This document shows positions 7,241 through 30,785 of a stretch of DNA of 64,000 nt, piece by piece (within the stretch, counting starts at the first letter, position 1; every line of letters begins with the position of its first letter). A program made the translations under genes and the position numbers. The DNA comes from Gluconacetobacter diazotrophicus PA1 5. Its GTDB lineage: Bacteria; Pseudomonadota; Alphaproteobacteria; Acetobacterales; Acetobacteraceae. Under the pieces are notes generated by a model. It did not search any database. It was not told where the DNA came from and worked only from the letters and a program-made list of their open reading frames with translations. The stretch covers positions 3,624,001 to 3,688,000 of the forward strand of contig NC_011365.1 of the NCBI RefSeq assembly GCF_000021325.1, read 5' to 3'.

Positions 7241-7259
7241 CGGGCGCGGCGCGCGGGGC

Positions 7260-7712
7260 CTACAGCCCGCGCGCCATCGCGGCGGCCAGGATGGTCAGGA
7301 ACCCCATTCCGATATTGATCATCACCAGCGACCGGATGCTGTCGAAGGTCGCGGGTTGCGGGCGGATGGCGCGCCGGACCTTCTGGAACGGGCCGAAATA
7401 GATCCGGGCGAACAGGGCCGCCATCGCCAGGCCCAGCACCTGCATCGCGTTCACCTGCCACGACACGGCGGCGAAGCCGCCCTCATGCAGGATCATCAGC
7501 CATCCGGTGACCAGAACCGTCGGCATCGTGTGCCAGACGATGCGGAAGAAGCGGGTCAGGGTCTGCAGGTGCACCGAGGCGCGCTGTGTCGCATCCAGCA
7601 GTCCCAGGCTGGGCCGCACGATGAAGACGGCATAGACCATGCCGCCGACCCAGGCGGTCATTCCGATCAGGTGGATGGCGAGCACGAGGCTCCAGAGGAT
7701 CGAATGGGACAT
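7260..7712 (-). CDS. CopD-like four-helix integral membrane protein
   Basis: A 150-residue membrane protein with four predicted helices (about residues 5-30, 55-78, 85-105 and 125-148). The first carries HLIGMTAWVGGMVY, a pattern typical of the CopD/YkoK-like family with a conserved helix-1 histidine. A second His sits in VWHTMPTVLVTGW. Family members are discussed as copper or heme handling proteins, but direct evidence for this branch is thin. It is convergent with the GH15 gene, with stops 20 bp apart, and divergent from the NAD(P)HX repair gene. Assignment to the CopD domain is reasonable; the function is open. Confidence 0.7.
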   Translation of the reverse strand: MSHSILWSLVLAIHLIGMTAWVGGMVYAVFIVRPSLGLLDATQRASVHLQTLTRFFRIVWHTMPTVLVTGWLMILHEGGFAAVSWQVNAMQVLGLAMAALFARIYFGPFQKVRRAIRPQPATFDSIRSLVMINIGMGFLTILAAAMARGL

Positions 7713-7831
7713 GTCTGCTCCGCTGAGATCGGGGATAGCTCGGGTGACCTGCCGTGCACGCCGATGGTATGCTTGATCGCTAATTCCGGACCGCCGCGCA
7801 AGTCGGCAGCAAACGGGAGTGATATCGCGCG

Positions 7832-9310
7832 ATGGATGGTACCTGTACGTCGCTTCTTCTTCCCGATCCCACGCAGATGGGGCTGATCGACCGCGCCGCC
7901 AGCCGCACCGTGCCGGTGCGCGACCTGATGGAAAACGCGGGCCGGGCCGTGGCGCGGGCCGTGCTGCGGCATGTCAGGCCGTGCCGGGTGCTGGTCCTAT
8001 GCGGCCCGGGGAATAACGGCGGCGACGGCTATGTCGCCGCCCGCCGGCTGGTCCAGGCCGGCTGGCCGGTCGCGGTCGCCGCCCTGGCGCCGCCCCGTCC
8101 GGGCGGGGACGCGGCCGCCGCCGCCGCCGACTGGCGCGGCCCCCGCGTACCCTTCACGGCGGAAGAGGCCGCGCGGGCCGACCTCGTGGTCGATGCGGTG
8201 TTCGGCGCCGGCCTCAGCCGCGATATCGATGCCGGCCTGGCATCGGTGCTGGCGGCGGCCCGCCGCGTGGTCGCGGTGGACATGCCCAGCGGCATCGACG
8301 GCGGCACCGGCGCGGTCCGGGGCTATGCCCCGCACGCCGAAATGACGGTCACGTTCGTGCGCGCCAAGCCGGGCCATCTGCTGCTGCCGGGGCGCGAGCG
8401 GCTGGGGCGGCTGGTGGTGGCGGATATCGGCATGCCCGACACGGTCTGGGACGCGGTGGACATCCGCACCTGGCGGAACGAGCCAGGGCTGTGGCGGGTG
8501 CCGGGCGACGCGGTGGACAGTCACAAATACGCGCGCGGCGTCGTCAGCATCTGCGGCGGCGCCACGATGCCGGGCGCCGCCCGCCTGTCCGCCGCCGGGG
8601 CCCGGGCGGCGGGCGCGGGGCTGGTGCGTCTGGCGGCGGGGGCGGCAGCGGATCTGTACCGGCTGGGCGAACCCGGGCTGGTGGTCGATGGCGGCGACCT
8701 GACCGACCTGCTGGCCGACCGGCGCCGCGCGGTCTGGGTCTGCGGCCCCGGCCTGACGGTGGACGAGGTCGATCATACATTGCCGATCCTGGTCGGGGCG
8801 GGGCGCACGGTGCTGGCCGATGCCGGGGCCTTTGCCGTGGCGGCGGACCAGCCGGACCGGCTGCGGGGGGTGGCGGTGATCACCCCGCATGCCGGGGAAT
8901 TCGCCCGCGTGTTCGGCCATCCCGGCGACGACAGGCCGGCGGCCGCGCGCGCCGCCGCCGCGCGAACCGGCGCGGTGGTGGTGCTGAAGGGCCCCGATAC
9001 CGTGGTCGCCGCGCCGGACGGGCGGGTCGCGATCAATGCCCACGCGTCCTCGGCGCTGGCCACCGCCGGGTCGGGCGACACGTTGACCGGGGTGATCGCG
9101 GCATTGCTGGCGGCGGGGATGGAGCCGTGGCCGGCCGCCTGCGCCGGGGTGTGGATGCATGGCGAAGCCGGGATGCGGGCCGGCCCCTGGCCGCTGGCCG
9201 AACAGTTCGACCAGCATCTGGGCGCCGCGCGGGCGCGGGCGGTGGAACTGGGCGCGCGGCGCCCGGCCTATCGGCATTGTCGGCTTGCCGGATCGGGTCT
9301 CGTGCGCTAA
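7832..9310 (+). CDS. nnrD/nnrE (YjeF-type fusion): Bifunctional NAD(P)H-hydrate epimerase / ADP-dependent NAD(P)H-hydrate dehydratase
   Basis: A 492-residue metabolite-repair enzyme joining the YjeF_N epimerase (about residues 1-215) to the YjeF_C ribokinase-like dehydratase. The epimerase part has LCGPGNNGGDGYVAARRL and DAVFGAGLSRD. The dehydratase part has VLKGPDTVVAAPDGR and the phosphate-binding ATAGSGDTLTGVIAALLAAG. It restores NAD(P)H damaged by hydration, which suits a cell running a complex I and many dehydrogenases. The last 30 residues are low-complexity Arg/Ala. The end of this gene overlaps a promoter-like sequence for the downstream tRNA-Leu. Full length for the fusion form. Confidence 0.92.
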   Translation: MDGTCTSLLLPDPTQMGLIDRAASRTVPVRDLMENAGRAVARAVLRHVRPCRVLVLCGPGNNGGDGYVAARRLVQAGWPVAVAALAPPRPGGDAAAAAADWRGPRVPFTAEEAARADLVVDAVFGAGLSRDIDAGLASVLAAARRVVAVDMPSGIDGGTGAVRGYAPHAEMTVTFVRAKPGHLLLPGRERLGRLVVADIGMPDTVWDAVDIRTWRNEPGLWRVPGDAVDSHKYARGVVSICGGATMPGAARLSAAGARAAGAGLVRLAAGAAADLYRLGEPGLVVDGGDLTDLLADRRRAVWVCGPGLTVDEVDHTLPILVGAGRTVLADAGAFAVAADQPDRLRGVAVITPHAGEFARVFGHPGDDRPAAARAAAARTGAVVVLKGPDTVVAAPDGRVAINAHASSALATAGSGDTLTGVIAALLAAGMEPWPAACAGVWMHGEAGMRAGPWPLAEQFDQHLGAARARAVELGARRPAYRHCRLAGSGLVR

Positions 9311-9313
9311 AGC
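9285..9313 (+). promoter_or_regulatory. Possible promoter of tRNA-Leu
   Basis: TTGCCG (9285-9290) and TAAAGC (9308-9313) are separated by 17 bp and lie about 28 bp before the tRNA 5' end, inside the last codons of the NAD(P)HX repair gene. The -35 box is reasonable and the -10 box is weak. This is by eye only. Confidence 0.35.
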
Positions 9314-9340
9314 CGCGCCCTTGGAAGACCGGGCGTCGTT

Positions 9341-9425
<85 letters not shown>

Positions 9426-9506
9426 GCCCGGCCAGTCGCGCGCGGATGCCGGCCCGAAGGGCCCCGTGCGTTCTATGAAGTTCTGACCGAGAGGATGGCC
9501 TGGCAG

Positions 9507-10844
9507 ATGCAGGTTACTGAAACGCTTTCCGCCGGCCTGAAGCGCGGATTTACCGTCACGGTGCCCGCCGGCGAACTGGAGAGCAAGCGGACCGCCCGCC
9601 TGAAGGAACTGGGGCAGTCCATGAACCTGCCGGGCTTCCGTCCCGGCAAGGTGCCCCTGAGCATCGTCAAGCAGCGCTACGGCGACGCCGTGCAGGGCGA
9701 GGTGCTGGAACAGGCGGTCAGCGACGCCACGCGCGCGCTGATGGACGAGCGTGGCCTGCGTCCGGCGATGCAGCCGCGCGTCGACCTGGTGGCGGGTGCC
9801 GAGCCGGGCGGCAAGGCCGACCTGGAATTCAAGGTCGAGGTCGAACTGCTGCCGGACATCGCGCAGCCCGACCTGTCCACCCTGTCGCTGACCCGCCTGA
9901 AGGCCACCCCGGACGCCGAGACGATCGACAAGGCGCTGAAGGACATCGCCAGCCGCCAGCGCGATTTCGAGACGATCGAGGACGTCCGTCCGGCCGCGCA
10001 GGGCGACGTCGTGGTCGTGGATTTCGTCGGCAAGGTCGATGGCGTGGCGTTCGAGGGCGGCACCGCCCAGGACGTCAATGTCGAACTCGGCGGCGCGGGC
10101 TTCATCCCCGGATTCGCCGAGCAGATCGAAGGCATGTCCCCGGGTGAGGAGAAGGTCATCACCGTGACCTTCCCGGCGGATTACTCGGCCGAGAACCTGG
10201 CGGGCAAGGAAGCGACCTTCGACATCACCGCCAAGGCGCTGAAGCGCCCGGTCGATGTCGAGATCGACGACGAGATGGCGAAGAAGATCGGATTCGAGGG
10301 GCTGGAACAGGTCCGCGAACTGATCACCAGGCAGGTCGAGCAGGAATACGAGCAGCTGTCGCGCCTGCGCATCAAGCGCGAGCTGCTGGACGCCCTGGCC
10401 GAGAAGACCGACTTCGAGGCCCCGCAGGGCATGGTCGAGGCCGAGTTCGCGCAGATCTGGCAGCGCGTCGAAGCCGACCGGAAGGCCGGCGAGCTGGACG
10501 AGGAAGACAAGGAAAAGGACGAGGACACCCTGCGCGCCGACTACCGCAAGATCGCGGAACGGCGGGTGAAGCTGGGCCTGCTGCTGGCCGAGATCGGCCG
10601 CGCCAACGCCATCACCGTCTCGCAGGACGAGATGCTGCAGGCCATCCGGGCCGAGGCCATGCGCTATCCCGGCCAGGAACAGCAGGTGTTCGAGTTCTTC
10701 CGCAAGAACCCGCAGGCCGCCGAGAGCCTCCGTGGCCCGATCTTCGAGAACAAGGTTGTCGACTATGTGATCGAGCTGGCGACGGTCGAGGACAAGGACG
10801 TCACCCCCGAGGAACTGGCCGAGATCCCGCCCGCCGACCTCTGA
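9507..10844 (+). CDS. tig: Trigger factor, ribosome-associated chaperone and prolyl isomerase
   Basis: 445 residues with the three-part layout of trigger factor. The ribosome-binding domain carries the signature loop GFRPGKVPLSIV (about residues 43-54). An FKBP-type PPIase domain starts near residue 150 (GDVVVVDFVGKVDG). A long helical C-terminal chaperone domain includes an acidic patch DEEDKEKDED. I chose ATG 9507 (MQVTETL) because the family begins there and GAGAGG lies upstream. An in-frame ATG at 9495 would add four residues. The open frame that runs back into the tRNA is not coding. It heads the classic tig-clpP-clpX-lon order of protein folding and turnover genes. Confidence 0.95.
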   Translation: MQVTETLSAGLKRGFTVTVPAGELESKRTARLKELGQSMNLPGFRPGKVPLSIVKQRYGDAVQGEVLEQAVSDATRALMDERGLRPAMQPRVDLVAGAEPGGKADLEFKVEVELLPDIAQPDLSTLSLTRLKATPDAETIDKALKDIASRQRDFETIEDVRPAAQGDVVVVDFVGKVDGVAFEGGTAQDVNVELGGAGFIPGFAEQIEGMSPGEEKVITVTFPADYSAENLAGKEATFDITAKALKRPVDVEIDDEMAKKIGFEGLEQVRELITRQVEQEYEQLSRLRIKRELLDALAEKTDFEAPQGMVEAEFAQIWQRVEADRKAGELDEEDKEKDEDTLRADYRKIAERRVKLGLLLAEIGRANAITVSQDEMLQAIRAEAMRYPGQEQQVFEFFRKNPQAAESLRGPIFENKVVDYVIELATVEDKDVTPEELAEIPPADL

Positions 10845-16765: not shown

Positions 16766-16906
16766 CATCATCACGGGAATGTTCACCATTCCATGGTGCA
16801 TCGCACACTGGTCGCATCCGGATGTTGGGTCTAACCTGTCGGCCATGTCGAAGCCCTGTTTTCGTCATGACGTCGGAACGGCGTGCCACCAGTCAGGGGA
16901 AGCAAC

Positions 16907-17272
16907 ATGCAGTCCGTCCTCGCGGATTACTTTCCGGTCCTCATCTTCGGCGTGCTGGCCGTCGTCATCGCCGGCGCCATGCTGGGAAGCTGCCTTCTGT
17001 TCGGCCATCAGAAGCCGTATGCCGAAAAGGTATCGGCCTACGAATGCGGGTTCGATGCGTTCGATGACGCGCGGCATCGCTTCGATGTGCGATTCTACCT
17101 CGTGGCGATCCTGTTCATCATCTTCGATCTCGAGGTCGCCTTTCTCTTTCCCTGGGCGGTCAGCCTGTCGCGGATCGGCCTGTTCGGTTTCCTGTCGATG
17201 ATGGGTTTCCTGGGCATCCTGACGGTCGGGTTCATTTACGAATGGTGCAAGGGCGCGCTGGACTGGGATTGA
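16907..17272 (+). CDS. nuoA: NADH-quinone oxidoreductase subunit A
   Basis: A 121-residue membrane subunit of complex I at the quinone-site junction. Three hydrophobic helices are visible (about residues 8-32, 65-88 and 92-112). The conserved loop between helices 1 and 2 carries [16 protein letters not shown], with the invariant Cys. First gene of the nuo operon; the leader AGGGGAAGCAAC gives a good SD. It is followed 22 bp later by nuoB. Confidence 0.95.
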
Positions 17273-17294: not shown

Positions 17295-17870
17295 ATGAGT
17301 GCCGCGAACGCGACGGGCGAGGGCCAGGACGCCATCGCCTGGAACAGGGAGATGCTGCCTCCGGGGCCGGAGCAGGATGCCGTCATCAAGGGCATCACCG
17401 GCGAAATCACCGAGAAGGGCTTCGTCGTCGCCAGCCTGGACAAGCTGGTGAACTGGGGCCGAACCGGCAGCCTGTGGCCGATGTCCTTCGGTCTGGCCTG
17501 CTGCGCCGTTGAAATGATCCACGCCTACATGCCGCGCTACGACCTGGACCGGATGGGCATCATCCCCCGCGGGTCGCCGCGCCAGTCGGACGTGATGATC
17601 GTGGCGGGCACCCTGACCAACAAGATGGCGCCGGCCCTGCGCCGGGTCTATGACCAGATGGCCGAGCCCCGCTGGGTCATCTCGATGGGCTCCTGCGCCA
17701 ATGGCGGGGGATATTACCATTATTCCTATTCCGTGGTGCGCGGCTGCGACCGGATCGTGCCGGTGGACGTCTACGTCCCCGGCTGCCCGCCGACGGCCGA
17801 GGCCCTGATCTACGGCATCTTTCAACTGCAGAAGAAAATTCGCAGGACAGGGACGATTCTCCGTGGCTGA
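17295..17870 (+). CDS. nuoB: NADH-quinone oxidoreductase subunit B
   Basis: A 191-residue peripheral subunit that holds cluster N2, the last Fe-S centre before ubiquinone. The four ligands are visible: adjacent Cys69-Cys70 (FGLACC), Cys134 (MGSCANGG) and Cys164 (VPGCPPT). AAGGAGA precedes the start. The 3' end overlaps nuoC by 8 bp, so translation is likely coupled. Confidence 0.97.
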
Positions 17871-18528
17871 CACCGGAACGGATCTGATGGCCCGGACGAC
17901 CCGGGCATTCGGGGCCCTGGGGTCCCTGGCGTTCGCACTCTCCACCTCGGTGCCGGGCATCCAGTCCGCGGCGATCGAAGGGGGCGAGCTGGTCGTGCGC
18001 ACCGGACGCGACAACCTGATCGCGCTGATGGGCATGCTGCGCGACGATCCACGCTATGCGTGCGAGCAGCTCATGGATCTGTGCGGGGTGGATTATCCGG
18101 CGCGGACCGAGCGTTTCGACGTCGTCTACAACCTGCTGTCGGTGACGCTGAACCATCGGATTCGGGTCATCGTCACGACCGACGAGACGAATCCGGTGCC
18201 GTCCGTCCATCATCTGTGGCCCGCGGCGACGTGGTGGGAACGCGAATGCTACGACCTGTTCGGGGTCCTGTTCTCGGGCCAGCCGGACCTGCGCCGTATC
18301 CTGACCGATTACGGTTTCGAAGGGCATCCGCTGCGCAAGGATTTCCCGCTGACCGGCTATGTCGAGGTGCGGTACGACGAAGACCGGCGCGAGGTGGTCT
18401 ACGAGCCGGTCAAACTGACGCAGGATTTCCGCAATTTCGATTTCGAATCGCCCTGGGAAGGTATCCTGACCCTGCCGGGCGACGAGAAGGCGCATGAAAC
18501 CCGCCAGGGGCTGAAGCTGCCGCGATGA
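17863..18528 (+). CDS. nuoC: NADH-quinone oxidoreductase subunit C
   Basis: A 221-residue hydrophilic subunit of the complex I connecting module (30-kDa type). The family signature [20 protein letters not shown] is at about residues 126-145, followed by [16 protein letters not shown]. The GTG start overlaps the end of nuoB by 8 bp. It is separate from nuoD, as in alphaproteobacteria and mitochondria, unlike the E. coli CD fusion. Confidence 0.96.
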
Positions 18529-18565
18529 CCGGGACATGCATGCGCAAGGTGAGGGGAGGCGGACG

Positions 18566-19816
18566 ATGAGCGACATTGTCCTTCATGAGGATATTCCGGA
18601 ATCCCTGCTGCCCGGTGGCGAGGCCGCGGCGGCCGCGACCCACACGGTGGAAATCGATTCCCACGCCCTGAATTTCGGCCCGCAGCATCCGTCCGCCCAT
18701 GGTGTGCTGCGCCTGGTCCTGGAAATGGAGGGCGAGGTCGTCGCCCGCGCCATTCCGCATATCGGCCTGCTGCATCGCGGCACCGAAAAGCTGATCGAAT
18801 ACAAGACCTATCCCAAGGCCCTGCCGTATTTCGACCGGCTCGATTACGTCTCGCCGATGTGCGAGGAGCAGGCTTTCGCGCTGGCGACCGAAAAGCTGCT
18901 GGGGATCGACATTCCCGATCGCGCGAAATGGATTCGCGTGATGTTCGCGGAAATCACCCGGATCCTGAACCATATCCTGAACCTGACGGCGCTCGGGCTC
19001 GATTGCGGCGCGGTGACCCCGGCGCTGTGGGGCTACGAGGAACGCGAAAAGCTGATCGAGTTCTACGAGGCCGCGTCGGGCGCCCGGTTTCATGCCAATT
19101 ACTTCCGTCCCGGCGGGGTCTCGCGTGACCTTCCGGCGGGGCTGGAGGATCGGATCGCCGAATGGGCGCGCCAGTTCCCGGCCTGGATCGACGATCTGGA
19201 ATCGCTTCTGACCAACAACCGGATCTGGAAGCAGCGCACGGTCGGGATCGGCATCTTCACGACCGAGCAGGCGCTGGCCTGGGGCTTCAGCGGTCCGTGC
19301 CTGCGCGCCTCGGGCGTGCCGTGGGACCTGCGCCGCGCCCAGCCCTATGACAATTACGACAAGGTCGAGTTCAACATCCCCGTCGCGCGCCAGGGCGATT
19401 GCTACGACCGCTACCTGATCCGCGTCGCGGAAATGCGCGAGAGCGTGCGGATCGTCGAACAGTGCCTGGCCCAGATGAAGCCCGGCCCGATCAAGATCCA
19501 GGACCACAAGATCACGCCGCCGCCCCGGCGCGAGATGAAGCGGTCGATGGAAGCCCTGATCCATCATTTCAAGCTGTTCACGGAAGGGTACCACGTCCCG
19601 CCGGGGGCAACCTATACGGCGGTCGAAAGCCCCAAGGGCGAATTCGGGGTCTATCTGGTCGCGGATGGCAGCAACCGGCCCTACCGGTGCAAGATCCGGC
19701 CGACCGGCTTCGCCCATCTGCAGGCCATCGACGAGATGTCGCGCCGCCACATGCTGGCCGACGCGGTGGCGATCATCGGGTCGCTGGACCTGGTGTTCGG
19801 CGAGATTGACAGGTGA
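18566..19816 (+). CDS. nuoD: NADH-quinone oxidoreductase subunit D
   Basis: A 416-residue 49-kDa-type subunit that forms the ubiquinone-binding pocket with NuoB. Recognised by [20 protein letters not shown] (about residues 34-53), the [10 protein letters not shown] motif, the loop [11 protein letters not shown], and the C-terminal [14 protein letters not shown] 18566 follows a strong GAGGGGAGG; the frame is open some 30 bp further upstream. A 4-bp overlap with a possible GTG start of nuoE suggests coupling. Confidence 0.97.
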
Positions 19817-19821
19817 AAGAG

Positions 19822-20472
19822 ATGTCCGCTCACTCCCCCATTGACCAGATCGAGCAGCCTTCCTCCTTCGCCTTCGATGCCGAGAGCGAGGCCGAGATCG
19901 CCACGATCCTGGTCAAGTACCCGCCCGAGCGCAAAGCCAGCGGCACGCTGCCGCTGCTCTATGTCGCGCAGAAGCAGATGGGCCGCGTCACCGGCAGCGC
20001 CTGGGTGCCCCGGGTGGCGATGGACGAGATCGCCCGCCGGCTGGAGGTCGCGCCGATCCGCGTCTACGAGGTTGCGACCTTCTACCTGATGTTCAACACC
20101 AAGCCGATCGGCCGCTATCACCTGCAGGTCTGCACCACCACCTCGTGCTGGCTGCGCGGTTCGGACGACGTGGTCGCGGCCTGCAAGAAGGCCACCGGCA
20201 TCTCCGCCTTCGGCCAGTCCAGCGCCGACGGTTTGTTCACCCTGACCGAGGTCGAATGCCTGGGGGGATGTTCCAACGCGCCGATCCTGCAGGTGGATGA
20301 CGATTTCTACGAGGATCTGGACGGACCGCGCACGATCGAACTGATCGAGGCGCTGCGGCGCGGCGATCGCCCGAAGCCGGGCCCGACCATCGATAGAATG
20401 GGTGCCGCCCCCGCGGGGGGGCGCAAGACGCTGACGGACAGTCCGGCGGACAGCCGGTCGGACCAGGGTTGA
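19822..20472 (+). CDS. nuoE: NADH-quinone oxidoreductase subunit E
   Basis: A 216-residue thioredoxin-fold subunit of the NADH dehydrogenase module carrying 2Fe-2S cluster N1a. The ligand pairs are in VCTTTSCWLRG and VECLGGCSNAP. A C-terminal tail of about 40 residues (Pro/Gly/Asp-rich) goes beyond the conserved fold. I chose ATG 19822; a GTG at 19813 overlapping the nuoD stop would add three residues and is a real alternative. Confidence 0.94.
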   Translation: MSAHSPIDQIEQPSSFAFDAESEAEIATILVKYPPERKASGTLPLLYVAQKQMGRVTGSAWVPRVAMDEIARRLEVAPIRVYEVATFYLMFNTKPIGRYHLQVCTTTSCWLRGSDDVVAACKKATGISAFGQSSADGLFTLTEVECLGGCSNAPILQVDDDFYEDLDGPRTIELIEALRRGDRPKPGPTIDRMGAAPAGGRKTLTDSPADSRSDQG

Positions 20473-20487
20473 GCGGGAGAGACGGCA

Positions 20488-21813
20488 ATGCTTCAGGACA
20501 AGGACCGGATCTTCACCAACCTGTATGGTCAGCAGGACTGGCGCCTGGCCGGCGCCCGGGCGCGCGGCGACTGGGACGGCACGGCCGAGATCATCGCCCG
20601 CGGGCGCGATGCGATCATCAACGAGATGAAGGCGTCCGGCCTGCGCGGCCGGGGCGGCGCGGGCTTCCCCACCGGCGTGAAATGGTCGTTCATGCCCAAG
20701 AATTCGGACGGCCGTCCTCATTACCTGGTGATCAACGGCGACGAATCCGAACCCGGCACCTGCAAGGATCGCGAGATCCTGCGCCATGACCCGCACAAGC
20801 TGATCGAGAGCGCGCTGATCGCCTCGTTCGCCATGGGGGCGCATGTCGCCTACATCTACATTCGCGGCGAATTCTTCAACGAAGCCCGGCATCTGCAGAT
20901 CGCGATCGACGAGGCCTATGCCGCCGGCCTGATCGGCCAGAACGCCGCCGGCTCGGGCTGGGATTTCGATTTCTACATTCATCGCGGCGCCGGCGCCTAT
21001 ATCTGCGGCGAGGAAACCGCGCTGCTGGAAAGCCTGGAAGGCAAGAAGGGCCAGCCCCGGATGAAGCCGCCTTTCCCGGCGGCAATGGGCCTGTATGGCT
21101 GCCCGACCACGGTGAACAACGTGGAAAGCATTGCCGTCGCCGCGACCATCCTGCGGCGCGGGGCTACGTGGTTCTCGTCGCTGGGACGCCCGAACAACGC
21201 GGGCACCAAGCTGATGGCCATATCGGGCCACGTGAACACGCCCTGCGTGTTCGAGGAAGAACTCGGCGTTCCGCTGAAGGACATCATCGAAAAGCATGGC
21301 GGTGGCGTGCGCGGCGGCTGGGACAACCTGCTGGCGGTGATCCCGGGCGGCTCTTCGGTCCCGCTGCTGCCGGCCTCGGTCTGCGAGACCGTGCTGATGG
21401 ATTACGACAGCCTGCGGGCCGAACGGTCGGGCCTGGGCACGGCATGCATGATCGTCATGGACAAATCCACCGACGTCATCCGCGCCATCGCCCGCTTCTC
21501 GCAATTCTACAAGCATGAAAGCTGCGGCCAGTGCACGCCCTGCCGCGAAGGCACGGGCTGGATGATGCGGGTCATGCACCGCATGGTCGAAGGCCGGGCC
21601 GAAATCGAGGAAATCGACATGCTCGAACAGGTGACGCGCCAGGTCGAAGGGCACACGATCTGTGCCCTCGGCGATGCGGCGGCATGGCCGATCCAGGGCC
21701 TGATCCGGCATTTCCGCCCGGTGATGGAGGAGCGGATCCGGGCCTACAAGGCCACCCACGGCGGCGGTCAGATCACGCAGGTGCCCCCGGGTATCCCCGT
21801 GGCGGCGGAGTAA
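20488..21813 (+). CDS. nuoF: NADH-quinone oxidoreductase subunit F
   Basis: The 441-residue NADH-binding and FMN subunit with 4Fe-4S cluster N3. The NADH/FMN fold shows [18 protein letters not shown] (about residues 53-70) and [14 protein letters not shown]. The Fe-S ligands are in [15 protein letters not shown] plus a later HTICALGD. Full length with good SD spacing. It hands electrons from NADH to NuoE and NuoG. Confidence 0.97.
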
Positions 21814-21818
21814 GGGCG

Positions 21819-23888
21819 ATGGTGAAGGTTACCGTCGACGGGATTCCGGTCGAAGTTCCCGGCGGGTCCAGCGCGTTGCAGGCGTGCGAGGCCGCGGGCA
21901 AGGAAATTCCGCGCTTCTGTTTTCATGAACGGCTGTCCGTCGCGGGCAATTGCCGCATGTGCCTGGTACAGGTGGTGCGCGCGCCGAAGCCCGTCGCGTC
22001 CTGCGGCTTTCCGGTGTCGGAAGGGATGGAAATCCTGACCGACACGGAAATCGTGCGCAAGGCGCGGCGCGCGGTCATGGAATTCCTGCTGATCAACCAT
22101 CCGCTGGACTGCCCGATCTGCGATCAGGGCGGCGAGTGCGACCTCCAGGACCAGGCGTTCGGCTACGGCGCGGACCATTCGCGCTACCAGGAAGCCAAGC
22201 GGGCGGTGAAGGACAAATATCTCGGCCCGCTGGTCAAGACGGTGATGACGCGGTGCATCCAGTGCACGCGTTGCGTGCGCTTCGCCACCGAAATCGCGGG
22301 CGTGCCCGAACTGGGCGCCGTCTCGCGCGGCGAGAACATGGAAATCACCAACTACGTCGAAAAGGCCCTGACATCGGAACTGTCGGGCAACCTGATCGAC
22401 ATCTGCCCCGTGGGCGCGCTGACATCGAAGCCCTACGCCTTCGTCGCACGGCCGTGGGAACTCAAGCGCACGGATTCGATCGACGTCTGTGACGCCGTCG
22501 GCACCAATATCAGCCTGCATGCGCGCGGCAGCGCCGTCCTGCGCGCCGTGCCCCGCGTGAACGACGAGGTGAACGAGGAATGGCTGGCGGACAAGGGGCG
22601 CTTCTCGGTCGACGGGCTGAAGCACCGCCGCCTGGATCGCCCCTGGGTCCGCGTGCACGGCAAGCTGCACTCCGTCTCGTGGCAGGAGGCCTTCGTCGCC
22701 ATCGGCCGCCGGCTGGACGGCGTGGCGGGTGACAGGATCGGCGCCATCGCCGGTGACCTGTGCGACGCCGAAAGCATGCTGGCGCTGAAGGACCTGATGA
22801 CGGCGCTGGGCTCGCGCAACATCGACTGCCGGCAGGACGGCGCGCAGTACGACCTGTCCAGCCGCGCCTACTATACTTTCGGCAGTTCCATCGCCGGGAT
22901 CGAGGACGCCGACGCGCTGCTGATCGTGGGCTCCGTTCCCCGGCAGGAAGCACCGGTCCTGAACGCGCGCATCCGCAAGCGCTTCGTCGCGGCGGGGCGG
23001 GGCGGGTTCCCGATCGGCCTGATCGGCGCCCCCACGGCCGACCCGACCTATGCGGCCCAGGTCCTCGGGGATGGGCCGGACGTGCTGACCGCCCTCCTGG
23101 ACGGCACGCACCCCTTCGCCGATACGCTGAAGGCCGCGAAGCGGCCGATGATCATCGTCGGCCACGGCGCCCTGGTGCGCGAGGACGCGCAGGCGATCCT
23201 GGCGGCAAGCTGGGCGCTGGGGCAGGCGGTGGGCGCGATCGGCGCCGGCTGGAACGGGTTCAACGTGCTGCACAACGCGGCCAGCCGCGTGGCCGGCCTC
23301 GACCTAGGCCTGGTGCCCGGGCAGGGCGGCCGCAGCGTCGCGGGGATGATGAGCGGCGGCGTGGAAGTGCTGTGGCTGCTGGGCGCGGACGAATTCCACA
23401 CCGCCCAGATCGGGCCCGAGACCTTCGTCATCTATCAGGGCCATCACGGTGACGCGGCCGCGGCCCGGGCGGATGTGATCCTGCCCGGCGCGACCTACGC
23501 CGAGAAATCCGGCACCTATGTCAATACCGAGGGCCGGGTCCAGCGGTCGTTCCGCGCGGTCATGCCGCCGGGCGACGCGCGCGAGGACTGGCGTATTCTC
23601 CGCGCCTTTTCCGAGGTCGTGGGCAAGACGCTGCCCTACGACACGCTGGAAGCCCTGCGCGAGCATCTGGCTGCCGTCAACCCGGTCTTCCGGGTGATCG
23701 GGGGGCGGGACGCGGTGGACGTCTCGGGCCTGACCGGGCCGGCCGGCGATCCGCGCGCGGTATCGTCGGCGCCGTTCCGCCCGGTCTTCGACGATTATTA
23801 CCAGACGAATCCGATCTGCCGGGCCAGTCCGACGATGGGCGAATGTTCGCGGATCTATGTCCCCCCCCGGGCCCTGGCGGCGGAGTAA
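21819..23888 (+). CDS. nuoG: NADH-quinone oxidoreductase subunit G
   Basis: A 689-residue subunit with several Fe-S clusters. An N-terminal 2Fe-2S ferredoxin domain has CFHERLSVAGNCRMC. The His/Cys ligands of N5 follow in CDLQDQAF and nearby, and the 4Fe-4S motif CPICDQGGEC and CIQCTRC is also present. The rest is a molybdopterin-oxidoreductase-like fold that in this family carries no cofactor. ATG 21819 lies 5 bp after the nuoF stop. It is of normal alphaproteobacterial length, shorter than E. coli NuoG. Confidence 0.96.
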   Translation: MVKVTVDGIPVEVPGGSSALQACEAAGKEIPRFCFHERLSVAGNCRMCLVQVVRAPKPVASCGFPVSEGMEILTDTEIVRKARRAVMEFLLINHPLDCPICDQGGECDLQDQAFGYGADHSRYQEAKRAVKDKYLGPLVKTVMTRCIQCTRCVRFATEIAGVPELGAVSRGENMEITNYVEKALTSELSGNLIDICPVGALTSKPYAFVARPWELKRTDSIDVCDAVGTNISLHARGSAVLRAVPRVNDEVNEEWLADKGRFSVDGLKHRRLDRPWVRVHGKLHSVSWQEAFVAIGRRLDGVAGDRIGAIAGDLCDAESMLALKDLMTALGSRNIDCRQDGAQYDLSSRAYYTFGSSIAGIEDADALLIVGSVPRQEAPVLNARIRKRFVAAGRGGFPIGLIGAPTADPTYAAQVLGDGPDVLTALLDGTHPFADTLKAAKRPMIIVGHGALVREDAQAILAASWALGQAVGAIGAGWNGFNVLHNAASRVAGLDLGLVPGQGGRSVAGMMSGGVEVLWLLGADEFHTAQIGPETFVIYQGHHGDAAAARADVILPGATYAEKSGTYVNTEGRVQRSFRAVMPPGDAREDWRILRAFSEVVGKTLPYDTLEALREHLAAVNPVFRVIGGRDAVDVSGLTGPAGDPRAVSSAPFRPVFDDYYQTNPICRASPTMGECSRIYVPPRALAAE

Positions 23889-23894
23889 GGCGAC

Positions 23895-24920
23895 GTGGCG
23901 CATTTCTTTCTGCACACCCTGATCGGTCAGGTGATCCTGACGGTCCTCGAGGCCCTGGCCGTGCTGGTGCCGCTGCTGCTGGGGGTCGCCTACCTGACCC
24001 TCGGGGAACGCAAGGTCATGGCGGCGATGCAACTCCGCAAGGGGCCGAACGTGAACGGCCCGTTCGGCGTGCTGCAGGCCTTTGCCGACGCGATCAAGAT
24101 GATCACCAAGGAAACGGTGATCCCGTCCGGGGCCAACCGGTTCCTGTTCCTGTTCGCACCGTTCCTGACCTTCTCGCTGGCCATGGTCGCCTGGGCGGTC
24201 ATTCCCACCAATAACGGCTGGGCGATAGCGAACATCAATGTCGGGATACTCTACCTGCTCGCGATTTCCTCGCTGGGGGTCTACGGCATCCTGATCGCGG
24301 GCTGGGCGTCCAACTCCAAATACGCCTTCCTGGGCGGCCTGCGCTCGGCGGCGCAGATGGTGTCCTACGAGGTCTCGATCGGCCTGGTCATCGTCTCGGT
24401 CCTGCTGGCGGTCGGCAGCCTGAACCTGAACGACATCGTCCTCGCGCAGCGCCATGTCTGGTTCTGCCTGCCGATGTTCCCGATGTTCATCGTCTTCTTC
24501 ATCTCGGCGCTGGCGGAAACCAACCGCGCGCCGTTCGACCTGCCCGAGGGCGAGAGTGAACTGGTGGCCGGCTTCTTCGTCGAATATTCGGCGCTGGCCT
24601 TCGGTCTCTTCTTCCTGGGCGAATACGCCAACATGTTCCTGATGTCGGGGATGGTCAGCATCCTGTTCCTGGGCGGCTGGCTGCCGCCGGTGGGGATCGC
24701 GCCCTTCACCTGGATCCCGGGGCCGCTGTGGCTGATCGCGAAGATCCTGTTCTGCCTGTTCGTCTTCATCTGGGTGCGCGCGACATTCCCGCGCTACCGC
24801 TACGACCAGCTGATGCGGCTGGGATGGAAGGTGTTCCTTCCGTTCTCGCTGGTGTGGATGGTGCTGACGGCGGGCTTCCTGCTGGCGACCGGGCTTCTGC
24901 CCCAGGGAGGAGCAAGCTGA
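23895..24920 (+). CDS. nuoH: NADH-quinone oxidoreductase subunit H
   Basis: A 341-residue membrane subunit with about eight helices, forming the quinone channel and the link between the hydrophilic and membrane arms. Signatures are [16 protein letters not shown] (about residues 37-52), the acidic loop [20 protein letters not shown], and [19 protein letters not shown] start, 6 bp after nuoG. The stop codon overlaps the nuoI start (TGATG). Confidence 0.97.
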
Positions 24921-25408
24921 TGGGACATTTCGACCGGACGGTCCGTTCCTTCCTTCTGGCCGAGCTCGTGGCCGGAATGGGGGCCACGTTCAAGGCCATG
25001 TTCAAGCCCAAGGTGACGATCAACTATCCCTATGAAAAGGGACCGCTCTCGCCCCGCTTTCGTGGCGAGCACGCCCTGCGCCGCTACCCGAACGGCGAGG
25101 AACGCTGCATCGCCTGCAAATTGTGCGAGGCGACGTGCCCGGCGGAAGCGATCACCATCGAATCCGAACCCCGCGATGACGGGTCGCGGCGCACCACGCG
25201 CTACGACATCGACATGACGAAGTGCATCTATTGCGGCCTGTGCGAGGAAGCATGCCCGGTCGATGCGATCGTCGAGGGACCGAATTACGAGTTCGCGACC
25301 GAGACGCGGGAGGAACTCATGTACAACAAGGACAAGCTGCTCGCCAACGGCGACCGCTGGGAAAGCGTCCTGGCACGGCGGCTGGAGCTCGATGCGCCCT
25401 ATCGTTGA
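24920..25408 (+). CDS. nuoI: NADH-quinone oxidoreductase subunit I
   Basis: A 162-residue ferredoxin-like subunit with two 4Fe-4S clusters (N6a and N6b). Ligand sets are Cys63/66/69/73 and Cys102/105/108/112, each CxxCxxCxxxCP. It has the N-terminal amphipathic region of the alphaproteobacterial type. It starts inside the nuoH stop codon. The gap to nuoJ (114 bp) is the longest in the operon and contains short tandem repeats. Confidence 0.97.
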
Positions 25409-25522: not shown

Positions 25523-26284
25523 ATGATGGCCCAAATCGTCTTTTACGTCTTTGCGACGGTGCTGGTCCTGTCGGCCGGCATGGTGGTCAGCGCCCGCAAT
25601 CCGGTGCATTCTGTCCTGTTCCTGATCCTGGCGTTCTTCAACGCTGCCGGATTGTTCCTGGTTGCGGGCGCCGAGTTCCTGGCGATGATCCTGGTCATCG
25701 TCTATGTCGGCGCGGTCGCGGTCCTGTTCCTGTTCGTCGTGATGATGCTCGACGTCCGGTTCACCGAGATGCGTGAGGGACTGCAGCGCTACGCGCCCTT
25801 CGGCGCGGCGGTGGGCGCCGTCCTGTTCGCGGAGCTGGCGCTGGCCTTCGGGCACTGGCAGGTCGCGCGGAACATCGCGGACGTGTCGCACCTGGTGCCG
25901 ACCCCGGGGCGGACCAATACCGCGGCCCTGGGCGATGTCCTGTATACGCATTACATCTTCCTGTTCGAATCCTGCGGCCTGGTGCTGCTGGTCGCCATGA
26001 TCGGCGCCATCGTGCTGACGCTGCGCGAACGCCCGGTGGGCAGGCGGCAGAACATCGAACGCCAGCACGAGCGTACGGCAGCGGATTCCCTGGACATGAT
26101 GGCCCTGCCGCTGGGGCAGGGCGTCGTGGACAATGGCGGATACCGCCGTCCGAAGCAGTCTTATTACGTCGCGTCGGTCCCCGGATCGTACGGTGTCAGC
26201 GCCGATGCCGTGCCGCAGCCCGCCCCGGCCGGCGGAACGCCCGGCACGACGCCCAGTGATACGCATGGAGGGCTGGCGCAATGA
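25523..26284 (+). CDS. nuoJ: NADH-quinone oxidoreductase subunit J with long hydrophilic tail
   Basis: A 253-residue membrane subunit with five hydrophobic helices in the first 175 residues, including the conserved third helix [19 protein letters not shown] with its pi-bulge region. The remaining 75 or so residues are hydrophilic, with Arg/Gln-rich then Pro/Gly/Thr-rich sequence, longer than in E. coli NuoJ (about 184 residues). ATG at 25523 or the next codon at 25526. The 3' end overlaps nuoK by 4 bp (ATGA). Confidence 0.94.
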
Positions 26285-26604
26285 CCGGCGGACTCGGAAG
26301 CATCGGCATCGGCCCGTACCTGACGGTCAGCGCCATCCTGCTGGTGCTGGGCGTGTTCGGGATTTTCCTGAACCGCAAGAACGTCATCATCATCCTGATG
26401 TCGATCGAACTGATCCTGTTGTCGGCGAACCTGAATTTCGTCGCGTTCTCATCCGCGCTCGGCGACCTGTCGGGCCAGGTCTTCACCTTGTTCGTCCTGA
26501 CGATCGCGGCGGCGGAATCCGCGATCGGGCTGGCGATCGTGACGGTCTATTTCCGCAACCGCGGATCGATCGAGGTCGAAGACATCACCATGATGAAGGG
26601 TTGA
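26281..26604 (+). CDS. nuoK: NADH-quinone oxidoreductase subunit K
   Basis: A 107-residue membrane subunit with three helices, homologous to MrpC. The second helix has the conserved Glu in [20 protein letters not shown] (about residues 37-56), and the third carries [12 protein letters not shown] with its buried Glu. Both acidic residues are part of the proton path. Starts in the nuoJ stop codon and ends 7 bp before nuoL. Confidence 0.97.
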
Positions 26605-26611
26605 GCGGGTC

Positions 26612-28552
26612 ATGGAAACGGCATCCTACCTTTTCGAGATCGCGGTCCTCGGCCCCCTGTTCGCTGCCCTCGTGGCGGGCCTGTTCGGCCGGCTGCTGGG
26701 GGACGGCCTGGCCCAGGCGCTGACCACGGGCCTGATGATCATCGCCGCCCTGTGCGGAGCCGGCGCGCTGTTCCTGGCGATGCATGCCGGCGGCATGCCC
26801 GTCGTGGTGCAACTGGCGGACTGGATCCGTGCCGGCAGCTTCCACGCCGCCTGGACCCTGCGGCTGGATACGCTGTCGCTGTCGATGGTCGCGATGGTGA
26901 CCTGTGTCTCGGCGCTCGTTCACCTCTACAGCGTCGGCTATATGGGGCACGAGACGACGCCGACCTACCGGTTCTTCTCATACCTCTCGCTCTTCACCTT
27001 CGCGATGCTGATGCTGGTCACGTCCAACGACCTGGTCCAGCTCTTCTTCGGGTGGGAAGGCGTGGGCCTGTGCAGCTACCTGCTGATCGGCTACTGGTAC
27101 GACCGCCCCAGCGCGAACAGCGCCGCGATCAAGGCGTTCGTGGTCAATCGCGTGGCCGATCTGTTCTTCATGGTGGGCATCGCCCTGCTGTTCGTGGAAT
27201 TCGGCTCGGTCACCTACGACAATATCTTCGCGCTCGTCCCGGCGCATGGCGACGACACGTTCACGCTGTTCGGCACCCATCATATCTATGAAGTCATCTG
27301 CATGCTGCTGTTCATCGGTGCGATGGGCAAGTCGGCGCAGCTGTTCCTGCACACCTGGCTGCCCGACGCGATGGAAGGCCCGACGCCGGTCTCGGCCCTG
27401 ATCCATGCCGCGACCATGGTCACGGCGGGCGTGTTCCTGATGGCGCGCATGTCGCCGCTGGTGGAATTCGCCCCGGGCACCAAGGCCTTCGTCGTGTTCA
27501 TCGGCGCGACGACGTGCTTCTTCGCCGCCACGGTCGGCCTGGTCCAGCCGGACATCAAGCGTACGATCGCCTATTCCACCTGCTCGCAGCTCGGCTACAT
27601 GTTCGCGGCGGTCGGGGTCGGCGCCTATCAGGCCTCGGTGTTCCACCTGACGACGCATGCCTTCTTCAAGGCGCTGCTGTTCCTGGGCGCCGGCTCGGTC
27701 ATCCATGCCGTGCATGACGAACAGGACATGTTCCGCATGGGCGGCCTGTGGAAGAAGATTCCGCTGACCTACGGCGCGATGTGGGTGGGCAGCCTGGCGC
27801 TGGCGGGCATCTTCCCCTTCGCCGGATACTGGTCGAAGGATGCGATCCTGGAAGCGGCCTGGATGGCGCATAGCGGACTGGGCTTCTATGCCTGGAGCCT
27901 GGGCTGCATCACGGCATTCATCACCGCGCTGTATAGCTGGCGGCTGATCTTCCTGGTCTTCCACGGCACGCCGCGCGACGCGCACCTGCATGAAGGCGCG
28001 CATGAAAGCCCCGCCTGGATGACCATCCCGCTGGTGCTGCTGGGCTTGGGGGCGGTCCTCGCCGGCCTGCTGCTGGCGCCGTATTTCGTGGGCTCGGGCC
28101 AGGCGGCATTCTGGAACGGTGCGATCGTGAACGCGCCGGGCAACACCATCATCGCGACGCTGGAACAGACGCCGGAACTGATCGCCCTGGTGCCGACCTT
28201 CGCCGGGATCGCCGGCATCGTGGTGGCCTACCTGTGCTACATGGCCAACCCGGCGATACCGTCCGTCCTGGCGAACAGCCTGCGGCCGTTTTACCTGTTC
28301 CTGCTGAACAAATGGTATTTCGACGAACTGTATGACCACATCTTCGTCCGGCCGTACCGTGCCCTGGCGCGCCTGCTCTGGAAGGGCGCGGACGAAGGCG
28401 TGATCGAAGCCATCCCCCAGGGGCTGGCCCGCATGACGGCGGGGACCGCCACCCAGGCGGTGCGGACCCAGACCGGGTCGATCGCGGTCTATGCCTTCAC
28501 GATGCTGATCGGCCTGGTGGTGCTCGTCTCCACCATGCTGGTCTTCCACTGA
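26612..28552 (+). CDS. nuoL: NADH-quinone oxidoreductase subunit L
   Basis: A 646-residue, MrpA/D-like antiporter-type proton-pumping subunit. Family marks are FFGWEGVGLCSYLLIGYWYD (about residues 145-164), the key Lys/Glu helices including AMGKSAQLFLHTWLPDAMEG and STCSQLGYMFAAVG, and a long C-terminal extension that forms the lateral helix. It is full length and ends normally (STMLVFH). What follows is nuoN at 26 bp, not the expected nuoM. Confidence 0.96.
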   Translation: METASYLFEIAVLGPLFAALVAGLFGRLLGDGLAQALTTGLMIIAALCGAGALFLAMHAGGMPVVVQLADWIRAGSFHAAWTLRLDTLSLSMVAMVTCVSALVHLYSVGYMGHETTPTYRFFSYLSLFTFAMLMLVTSNDLVQLFFGWEGVGLCSYLLIGYWYDRPSANSAAIKAFVVNRVADLFFMVGIALLFVEFGSVTYDNIFALVPAHGDDTFTLFGTHHIYEVICMLLFIGAMGKSAQLFLHTWLPDAMEGPTPVSALIHAATMVTAGVFLMARMSPLVEFAPGTKAFVVFIGATTCFFAATVGLVQPDIKRTIAYSTCSQLGYMFAAVGVGAYQASVFHLTTHAFFKALLFLGAGSVIHAVHDEQDMFRMGGLWKKIPLTYGAMWVGSLALAGIFPFAGYWSKDAILEAAWMAHSGLGFYAWSLGCITAFITALYSWRLIFLVFHGTPRDAHLHEGAHESPAWMTIPLVLLGLGAVLAGLLLAPYFVGSGQAAFWNGAIVNAPGNTIIATLEQTPELIALVPTFAGIAGIVVAYLCYMANPAIPSVLANSLRPFYLFLLNKWYFDELYDHIFVRPYRALARLLWKGADEGVIEAIPQGLARMTAGTATQAVRTQTGSIAVYAFTMLIGLVVLVSTMLVFH

Positions 28553-28578
28553 TCTTTCCGGGAAACGGGTCTGAACCG

Positions 28579-30006
28579 ATGAACTGGACACTTGCACTGC
28601 CGGAAATCGTCCTGGCGCTCTGTGGCCTCGCTATCCTCGTCTTCGGCGTGGTGCAGAAGAAGGAGCAGCCGTTCCTGTCCTGCTCCATGCTGACGATCGG
28701 CGCGTTCGTGCTGACCGGTTTCCTGGTCGTGATGTCGCCGGACGGGGTCGGATACAACCATATCTTCGTCAATGACGATTTCGCCCGCTTCATGAAGATC
28801 CTCAGCCTGGCGGGCGGGGCATTCGCCACCATGCTGACGGTCGGCTACGCGCGGAACATGAAGGTGGAACGGTTCGAATTTCCCGTCCTGCTGCTGTTCT
28901 CGACCCTGGGTGCGATGATGATGGCGTCGTCCGAGAACCTGATGACGCTGTTCATCGGCCTGGAACTGTCGTCGCTTGCCATCTACATCCTCTGCGCCTT
29001 CGCACGGGACGAGGTCAGGGGCGGCGAGGCCGGGCTGAAATATTTCGTCCTGGGCTCGCTGGCCTCCGGCCTGCTGCTCTACGGCTCGTCCCTGGTCTAC
29101 GGCTATGCCGGCACGATGGAATATGGCGGCATCCAGATGGCGCTCAGCACCAGTTCCACCGCCGTGCCGATGGGCCTGATGTTCGGCATCGTGTTCATGC
29201 TGGCCGGGCTGACCTTCAAGCTGTCGGCGGTGCCGTTCCATATGTGGACACCGGACGTCTACCAGGGCGCGCCGACCTCGGTGACCGCGTACATGGCCGG
29301 CGCGCCGAAATTCGCGGCCTTCGCGCTGCTGCTGCGGGTCATGGCCGGTCCCTTCGGCCATGTCGCGCCGCAATGGCAGATCCTGGTCGAAGGCGTCTCG
29401 ATGCTCTCGATGCTGTTCGGTTCGCTGGCGGCCATTCCCCAGACCGACATCAAGCGGCTGATGGCCTATTCCTCGATCGGCCATATGGGCTACGCCCTGA
29501 TGGGCCTGTGCGCCGGCACGGCCGAGGGCATGCGCGGCACGCTGGTCTATCTGACCACGTACCTGCTGATGAATGTCGGCGCCTTCGCCGTCATCATCGC
29601 CATGCGCCGCAAGGGGCGTGAAGTGACCGGGATCGCCGACCTGGCCGGGCTGGGCAAGACCGATCCGGGCCTGGCCACCGCCATGGCGATCTTCATGTTC
29701 AGCATGGCGGGTGCGCCGCCGCTGGCCGGGTTTTTCGGCAAGATGATGGTGTTCTATGCCGCGATCAACGCCCACCTGTTCGGCCTGGCGGCCATCGGCG
29801 TCGTCAGCAGCGTGATCGGCGGCTACTACTATGTCCGCATCGTCAAGGTGATGTTCTTTGACGACGCCGCGGCCCCCCTCGATCGCCGGCCGCTGTCGCT
29901 GTCCTTCGTCTCGGTGGGCATGGGCATCGCCACCACCGGCTTCCTGCTGGTGCTGGGACCGGTATCCAGCGCGGCGCAGGCGGCGGCCCAGGCCCTGTTC
30001 AGGTGA
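28579..30006 (+). CDS. nuoN: NADH-quinone oxidoreductase subunit N
   Basis: A 475-residue antiporter-type membrane subunit. It is identified as NuoN rather than NuoM by MTLFIGLELSSLAIYILCAF (about residues 122-141), the segment FKLSAVPFHMWTPDVYQGAP, and the C-terminal NuoN-type region FFGKMMVFYAAINAHL. It contains the intramembrane Glu of the ELSSL helix and Lys in TFKLSAVPFH. The stop codon overlaps the GTG start of birA. No nuoM exists between this gene and nuoL. Confidence 0.95.
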   Translation: MNWTLALPEIVLALCGLAILVFGVVQKKEQPFLSCSMLTIGAFVLTGFLVVMSPDGVGYNHIFVNDDFARFMKILSLAGGAFATMLTVGYARNMKVERFEFPVLLLFSTLGAMMMASSENLMTLFIGLELSSLAIYILCAFARDEVRGGEAGLKYFVLGSLASGLLLYGSSLVYGYAGTMEYGGIQMALSTSSTAVPMGLMFGIVFMLAGLTFKLSAVPFHMWTPDVYQGAPTSVTAYMAGAPKFAAFALLLRVMAGPFGHVAPQWQILVEGVSMLSMLFGSLAAIPQTDIKRLMAYSSIGHMGYALMGLCAGTAEGMRGTLVYLTTYLLMNVGAFAVIIAMRRKGREVTGIADLAGLGKTDPGLATAMAIFMFSMAGAPPLAGFFGKMMVFYAAINAHLFGLAAIGVVSSVIGGYYYVRIVKVMFFDDAAAPLDRRPLSLSFVSVGMGIATTGFLLVLGPVSSAAQAAAQALFR

Positions 30007-30785
30007 ACGGCGCGACGCCGGTCGCACCCGTACCGCCGCCGGGGCCGACACCCTGGCGGCTGGAGATTCATGACGAACTGGACTCGACGTCCGATACCTG
30101 CCTGGCCCGGGCCGGGCAGGGCGAACGCTCCGGCCTGGCCGTCATGGCCCGCCGCCAGACGCGCGGGCGTGGCAGCCGGGGGCGGGACTGGCAGGACCCG
30201 GGCGGGAACCTCGCGTTTTCGGTCTTGCTCCGGCCGGGCGGGAAAGGGGAATGGCCCGTCGGGCTGTGGCCCTTCATTGCCGGCCTGGCTTTCCACGGGG
30301 CGATTGCACCCTGGATTCCCCACCCCATATCTCTCCGGCTGAAATGGCCGAACGACCTGCTTCTGGAAGGGCGCAAGGCGGCTGGAATCCTGATCGAGGC
30401 CGGCACGGATTCGTCCGGGCGATGGCTGGTGATCGGGTTCGGCGCCAATCTGCGGGCGGCCCCCGCCATTACGGGACGGGACCTGGCCTGTGTCGCCGAA
30501 TACGGAACGGCGCCCGAGCCGGAGATCGTGGCACGGGCGATCTGCGCCGGACTGGACCATTGGATGGCGGTTTGTGGCGGGCAGGGGGACGGCCTGGGGT
30601 TCGAAGCGGTGCGGCAGGCGTGGCTGGCGCACGCGCACCCCATGGGCACAAGGCTTGTGGTGCGCGCTGAAAGCGGGCAGGTAGAAGGTTCGTTCGCTGG
30701 TCTGGACGCGCAGGGCATGCTCCTGCTGCGTTGCGCCGACGGACTGAAACGGATTTCCACCGGCGAAATCCTGCTGCTGGACTAG
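30003..30785 (+). CDS. birA: Biotin-[acetyl-CoA-carboxylase] ligase
   Basis: A 260-residue enzyme that adenylates biotin and attaches it to the carboxyl carrier protein. Motifs: QTRGRGSRGRDWQDPGGNLAFS (an ATP/biotin loop, about residues 51-70), the biotin-pocket stretch RLKWPNDLLLEGRKAAGILIE, and a small C-terminal SH3-like domain. It lacks an N-terminal helix-turn-helix, so it is a ligase without the repressor role. It is translationally coupled to nuoN through a GTGA overlap. Confidence 0.92.
   Translation: MNGATPVAPVPPPGPTPWRLEIHDELDSTSDTCLARAGQGERSGLAVMARRQTRGRGSRGRDWQDPGGNLAFSVLLRPGGKGEWPVGLWPFIAGLAFHGAIAPWIPHPISLRLKWPNDLLLEGRKAAGILIEAGTDSSGRWLVIGFGANLRAAPAITGRDLACVAEYGTAPEPEIVARAICAGLDHWMAVCGGQGDGLGFEAVRQAWLAHAHPMGTRLVVRAESGQVEGSFAGLDAQGMLLLRCADGLKRISTGEILLLD

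Follow-up and report, generated by a model that had tools for sequence, protein, structure and literature searches.

The canonical alphaproteobacterial nuoA-N operon ('nuo14', for example that of Paracoccus denitrificans complex I) carries nuoM between nuoL and nuoN. The complex I genes of Gluconacetobacter diazotrophicus PA1 5 specify the same subunits, but here nuoM lies outside the operon and its product belongs to a more diverged NuoM lineage. The operon in question sits in the window, that is, the whole 64,000-nucleotide stretch of contig NC_011365.1 analyzed here (C1:3624001-3688000 in our notation), in a 3.91 Mb genome of two contigs that is 99.99% complete; genomes and loci of relatives are designated below by G and L numbers. 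The same type of arrangement has already been annotated in Acetobacter pasteurianus: strain SKU1108 is described with a nuoA-nuoN operon and a separately placed nuoM (APT_00690) (PMC5158111), and for strain 386B an unnamed separate locus, APA386B_2247, is listed with complex I (PMC3751514). The accessible portions of these two papers pass over the split, its spread, its age and mutL without comment. A further described operon, 'nuo13', takes its number from a fused nuoCD gene and not from loss of nuoM (PMC12361115); this type (PMC12361115, PMC10715153) is also present in the host genome as a second operon, whose NuoM forms a clade apart from the solitary one. Elsewhere nuoA-N and lao are treated as one 15-gene set, perhaps the second operon (PMC9368920), and the accessible portion of PMC12405394 does not mention nuoM.

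We propose, with high confidence, that the window operon supplies every core subunit of an ordinary complex I except NuoM (13 of 14), that NuoM is supplied in trans from a solitary nuoM, and that the arrangement reflects a single split followed by vertical inheritance. The complex I of the host is most likely complete and ordinary: all 14 core subunits are encoded in the genome, A-L and N in the window and M at C1:1.57 Mb. Since a nuoM apart from the operon has been published before for A. pasteurianus, the finding is mostly explained and modest in scope; our search of open-licence papers found no discussion of a clade-wide split, of linkage to mutL or of a genus with two copies.

The nuoL-nuoN junction and the solitary nuoM

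The initial annotation had read thirteen nuo genes in the order A to L and then N, with nuoM missing, and profile matches bear this out: the genes lie on the plus strand in the order A-B-C-D-E-F-G-H-I-J-K-L-N, followed by a birA-like gene, with the identities of nuoB to nuoK confirmed by NCBIfam models. It was also right that NuoL ends normally (TGA at 28550-28552) and that NuoN begins 26 bp further on (ATG at 28579); the window operon lacks the nuoM between nuoL and nuoN by which a canonical 14-gene nuo operon is recognized. The gene after nuoL matches the NuoN models NF004440 (599.4 bits, cut-off 519) and TIGR01770 (470.2 bits, cut-off 332.6) and reaches only 134.4 bits against the NuoM model TIGR01972, below its cut-off of 263.8, which excludes the suspicion that it is a misnamed nuoM; among solved structures its closest match is chain N of 8qby (408.8 bits), which we take to be P. 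denitrificans complex I. The 26-bp junction is too short to hold a recognizable nuoM remnant, and the direct repeats around it are weak 14-17-mers only, suggesting no excision scar.

Three explanations had been offered for the gap: that nuoM lies elsewhere in the genome, that the strain has a modified complex I, or that the assembly has lost about 1.5 kb. Only the first is supported. A NuoM search of the full host genome returned six related places, of which two exceed the NuoM cut-off (C1:1570168-1571607, minus strand, 542.7 bits; C1:802957-804402, minus strand, 488 bits) and the remaining four correspond to nuoL and nuoN of the two operons. The better match lies within an open reading frame (ORF) that encodes 502 residues and has a GTG start, some 2 Mb away from the window, with mutL 122 bp upstream and a gene of the MYG1 family next downstream, both on the same strand; upstream of mutL lie a DUF3035 gene and an IleRS-like tRNA synthetase gene. 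Its product barely passes the cut-off of NF004499 (585.1 against 585 bits), passes that of TIGR01972 comfortably (543 against 263.8), stays below the cut-offs of the other NuoM models shown, and finds its best solved relative in chain M of 8qby (449.4 bits). In a tree of 73 NuoMs it falls within the alphaproteobacterial NuoMs, parted from the second-operon type by a 100/100 branch. The conserved membrane residues of the pump channel, Glu144, Lys223, Lys254 and Glu396, presumably equivalent to E. coli E144, K234, K265 and E407, are present in the orphan NuoMs of all 18 family genomes with a detached nuoM and of all 79 named loci described below (the two sets overlap). Judged from its sequence, the solitary gene is an intact NuoM of the window operon's own type.

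The features are as follows, with positions in the window except for the last.

16883..17272, plus strand: nuoA (PF00507, 129.8 bits)
17295..17870, plus strand: nuoB (NF005012, 266.2 bits)
17863..18528, plus strand: nuoC, separate from nuoD (NF004733, 287 bits)
18536..19816, plus strand: nuoD (NF004739, 608 bits)
19813..20472, plus strand: nuoE (TIGR01958, 154.6 bits, passing the cut-off of 142.4)
20488..21813, plus strand: nuoF (NF010120, 832.4 bits)
21531..23888, plus strand: nuoG as the listed ORF, real start probably near 21.82 kb (TIGR01973, 728.3 bits from residue 100)
23895..24920, plus strand: nuoH (NF004745, 515.4 bits)
24728..25408, plus strand: nuoI as the listed ORF, real start probably near 24.93 kb (NF004539, 306.1 bits from residue 68)
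25523..26284, plus strand: nuoJ (NF005164, 266.8 bits)
26281..26604, plus strand: nuoK (NF004323, 161.1 bits)
26612..28552, plus strand: nuoL, 646 residues (TIGR01974, 792.8 bits)
28553..28578, no strand: nuoL-nuoN junction, where in-operon relatives carry nuoM (from the sequence)
28579..30006, plus strand: nuoN, 475 residues (NF004440 and TIGR01770, as above)
30003..30785, plus strand: birA-like biotin-protein ligase gene, a conserved 3' neighbor of the operon (TIGR00121, 123.5 bits)
C1:1570114-1571622, minus strand: solitary nuoM, outside the window

For nuoG (21531) and nuoI (24728), translation probably starts downstream of the listed position, as the best matches to the models set in only at residues 100 and 68, respectively. 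The second nuo operon of the host (L014, C1:796000-815900 of G000, minus strand) has a fused nuoCD and its own L-M-N order; its genes from B to N were matched, and nuoA was not confirmed by the one ORF tested. Stand-alone NuoL-NuoM pairs of this second-operon type occur in L087 (G022, 7150-10502), L088 (G025, 7474-10595) and L089 (G048, 7134-10255); other nuo genes were not found in their flanks, which a contig end cuts short in L089, and a flavodoxin-like gene follows the pair in L087.

Spread of the split through the family

The window's type of nuoN scores above its cut-off in 120 of 150 family genomes (121 rows). Directly upstream of it lies nuoM in 97 of the 120, whereas in 18 nuoM is found elsewhere and in five there is no NuoM row; four of these five have nuoN less than 900 bp from the contig start, and in the fifth (G120) the end of nuoM is visible at the contig edge. 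Every one of the 18 genomes with a detached nuoM passes directly from nuoL to nuoN, with gaps of about -1 to 76 bp (a range in which three nuoN starts are estimates), and in every one, the window genome included, birA follows nuoN, giving the relatives the order K-L-N-birA. The end of mutL lies just upstream of nuoM in 14 of them, about 2 kb upstream in G071 and about 7 kb upstream in G056; mutL was not found in the nuoM flanks of G117 and G132.

Flanks of nuoN add a further 26 genomes with the L-N junction, making 44 in total, and 25 of the 26 carry an orphan-lineage nuoM at another place. The junction thus recurs in related acetic acid bacteria, where the initial annotation had proposed to look for it, including G271, a second record labeled as the same species, in which nuoN follows nuoL at 99-100% identity. 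That the assembly has lost about 1.5 kb between nuoL and nuoN is contradicted by these 44 genomes, that second record among them, as well as by the intact nuoM elsewhere in the host genome; no supporting points were found, and we regard such a loss as extremely improbable.

When 397 genomes were searched with a model of the orphan lineage, 65 scored 792 bits or more and none fell between 792 and 700. The junction was read in 46 of the 65: 43 read L-N, and the other three, all of genus g100, combine a nuoM ahead of nuoN with a solitary copy. Named loci, comprising the best 80 of 121 relatives from a scan of the species genome collection and examined with flanks of at most 6 kb (shorter at contig ends), give a similar picture: in 79 no further nuo gene accompanies nuoM within the flank, and the remaining nuoM belongs to a normal operon; the end of mutL lies less than 500 bp upstream of nuoM in 59 of these 80. 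Genera among these loci include Gluconacetobacter, Novacetimonas, Komagataeibacter, Acetobacter, Ameyamaea, Commensalibacter, Lichenicoccus and Endobacter. Outside this group, the order is L-M-N in all 30 of the best-scoring NuoM loci within the family and in 29 of the 30 best-scoring within the class, the remaining one reading L-M with N not seen.

The history of the split is that of a single clade. Orphan NuoMs are monophyletic (94/80, 27 rows; 84, not starred, in a quick tree of 18 rows), as are the operons that lack nuoM by NuoL and NuoN combined (100, 18 rows) and the species that carry them by RpoB (100/100, 14 rows). The 73-sequence NuoM tree comprises 27 orphans, from the 18 family genomes with a detached nuoM and nine of the 79 named loci, and 26 in-operon sequences, among others; in the NuoL set an in-frame stop in rows L086 and L099 was masked as X and counted as a gap, there being none in the NuoM or NuoN rows. 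The nearest in-operon relatives of the orphans differ between trees, being G140, G068, G023 and G096 by NuoM (99/96) and G053 and G130 by NuoL and NuoN (92). In approximately unbiased (AU) tests, a NuoM clade of the orphans, the solitary copy of G100 (genus g100) and G053/G130 is not rejected (p = 0.23), whereas one of the orphans and G053/G130 without that copy is (p = 8.7e-7).

Probable supply of NuoM in trans

The window operon would thus provide all core subunits but one (13 of 14) of a proton-pumping complex I of the alphaproteobacterial, mitochondrial type, with NuoM made in trans from the solitary gene just downstream of mutL and inserted as usual between NuoL and NuoN, which would leave the membrane arm complete; the ancestor of the acetic acid bacteria would have undergone the split, a single event, with vertical inheritance since. 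Beyond the observed gene, place, family, conservation, single-clade history and absence where the operon is absent, we infer that the solitary NuoM assembles into this complex and pumps protons. Published A. pasteurianus proteomics, which we count as independent support, point the same way: across four comparisons, NuoM (fig_HN.1610) is reported at 0.62/0.33/2.16/1.78 and NuoN (fig_HN.3354) at 0.93/0.31/2.22/2.12, shifting in the same direction in each, and in the accessible portion of that paper the accession number of NuoM is far from that of the operon (PMC10742644).

A further supporting point comes from genomes that lack the operon. Among the 30 genomes without an above-cut-off nuoN, 21 were searched with model A1 for the orphan-type NuoM and none has it (best score 359 bits); nor do any of the 30 belong to the 65 genomes that score at least 792 bits with A2, a similar model. 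Twenty of the 21 were usable in an RpoB tree, where they form one clade (100/99) nested within the solitary-nuoM species as sister to Ameyamaea (G009), the whole group being one clade as well (100/99); G136, whose RpoB is in two pieces, was left out of this extended tree, and the fragments L303 and L304 were not used. Since the operon-less genomes without an orphan NuoM form one nested clade, the operon and the solitary nuoM appear, on this phylogenetic pattern, to have been lost together, once. The pattern fits an earlier report, in its accessible portion, that some acetic acid bacteria have lost the common nuo operon (PMC4596401).

These data also bear on the view that the complex I of the host is a reduced form able to function in the absence of NuoM, with the solitary NuoM acting in another antiporter or for the second nuo operon. 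The second operon does make the functional assignment in the host genome less direct, but it has its own NuoM (488 bits), and the solitary NuoM is kept even where only one nuoN is present (E <= 1e-70), as in 12 of the 18 orphan genomes. Given further the lack of the orphan-type NuoM in 21 of 21 operon-less genomes searched, the invariant pump residues and the presence of an intact NuoM of matching type, the modified complex I of the initial annotation is very unlikely. The converse arrangement, in which the second operon supplies NuoM to the window complex, was rejected as the principal explanation because a nuoM of matching type exists.

Several points weigh against supply in trans from the mutL-side gene. 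NuoN, at 0.93, is not called changed in one of the four proteomic comparisons (PMC10742644), and fig_HN.1610 may be a gene other than the one beside mutL. G444, of the same genus, has the L-N junction (C120, L268), yet NuoM was not found in it; this assembly is 87% complete in 1310 contigs, and the absence is likely an assembly gap. Linkage to mutL is looser in part of the best 80 of 121 named loci, with mutL 2-3.5 kb upstream of nuoM in five and a flank without mutL in 16, namely 15 solitary loci, some on short contigs, and the in-operon one. Scanning the surroundings of nuoM for a sigma-70 consensus turned up no promoter, which says little because only 0.3 was expected by chance. Finally, the joint loss is one event on the tree and therefore of small statistical weight.

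Origin of the split

Orphan NuoMs have diverged more than their NuoL and NuoN partners. Dividing the mean distance of NuoM to five in-operon outgroup genomes by the NuoL-NuoN average gives 1.13-1.30 in all 18 orphan genomes and 0.63-1.14 in 8 of 8 other in-operon genomes, and the stem is 0.55+0.066 long for NuoM against 0.20 for NuoL and NuoN combined. Genus g100 is of particular relevance here, as all three of its sampled genomes (G100, G213 and G256) carry an in-operon NuoM before nuoN together with a solitary one that belongs with the orphans (796-802 bits with the orphan-lineage model, against 674-676 for the in-operon copy); among the 65 orphan-lineage genomes it alone has a second NuoM, the in-operon one, at E <= 1e-165. 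The solitary copy of G100 is sister to the orphans (joint clade 100/100), is not a recent copy of the genome's own in-operon NuoM (AU p = 3.4e-5) and does not lie beside mutL (813 kb vs. 532 kb). Its neighbors (glutamate synthase, GST, TPR, tRNA-synt_1c, Abhydrolase_2, HNH and CtaG_Cox11) give no functional hint.

Two routes to the split, rivals as to its origin and not as to present function, can be weighed against these observations. By the first, nuoM was cut from the operon in one step and re-inserted elsewhere, now beside mutL in most species, evolving faster because it had been freed from the operon, while the solitary copy of g100 was acquired laterally. The short L-N junctions of all 18 genomes and the single clade recovered by NuoM, NuoL and NuoN, and RpoB fit such a relocation, to which we give close to an even chance; the g100 copy, however, is sister to all orphans and not nested among them (94/80; 84, not starred, in the quick tree), and in G100 it lies away from mutL. 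By the second, an additional nuoM originated outside the operon, or came in by lateral transfer, diverged during a redundant phase and replaced the in-operon copy, which was then deleted. This takeover, which we hold to be a real possibility if somewhat short of even, would account for both copies in all three sampled g100 genomes, for the position of the G100 solitary copy and the AU result against its recent origin from its in-operon counterpart, and for the higher distance ratio and longer stem of the orphan NuoMs, although the ratio ranges touch (1.13 vs. 1.14) and long branches are involved.

An extra nuoM has an independent second case in G011 and G102, which carry a solitary copy in addition to a complete L-M-N operon elsewhere in the genome and thereby lend the takeover some precedent; two matches each are present in G215 and G292 as well. 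The extra NuoMs of G011 (L090, 8075-9511) and G102 (L091, 8075-9556) form a long branch placed in another region of the family tree and have Asn in place of Lys254; no RpoB match was found in G011. Asn at this position also occurs in two of the 44 in-operon NuoMs examined (L099 of G053 and L100 of G130).

The placement of g100 pulls the other way. RpoB gives low support to a sister relationship between g100 and the acetic acid bacteria (52/89; 56/59 in the extended tree), and the NuoL and NuoN tree instead groups it with G114, G043, G062 and G039 (94). Moreover, a clade of the orphans and both G100 NuoM copies, expected if the second copy arose in a common ancestor, is weakly rejected (AU p = 0.030). 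Because the g100 evidence suggests takeover while its placement and p = 0.030 speak against it, we consider takeover and simple relocation about equally probable. A bolder formulation, which we advance tentatively and think more probably wrong than right, is that the acetic acid bacterial nuoM is a second, divergent copy that assumed the role of central pump in complex I, the original having been deleted, with g100 as a living two-copy stage that possibly builds two alternative complexes I differing only in NuoM.

Locating nuoM removes the false alarm of a missing pump subunit in complex I and carries a practical caution, as many acetic acid bacteria would be credited with a 'partial' complex I by scoring that relies on operons. 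The remaining interest lies in the evolutionary route of the nuoM split: in this one clade a single core subunit of a large membrane complex has left its operon, while one genus keeps both copies, a setting that allows the effect of operon position on assembly and evolutionary rate to be tested.

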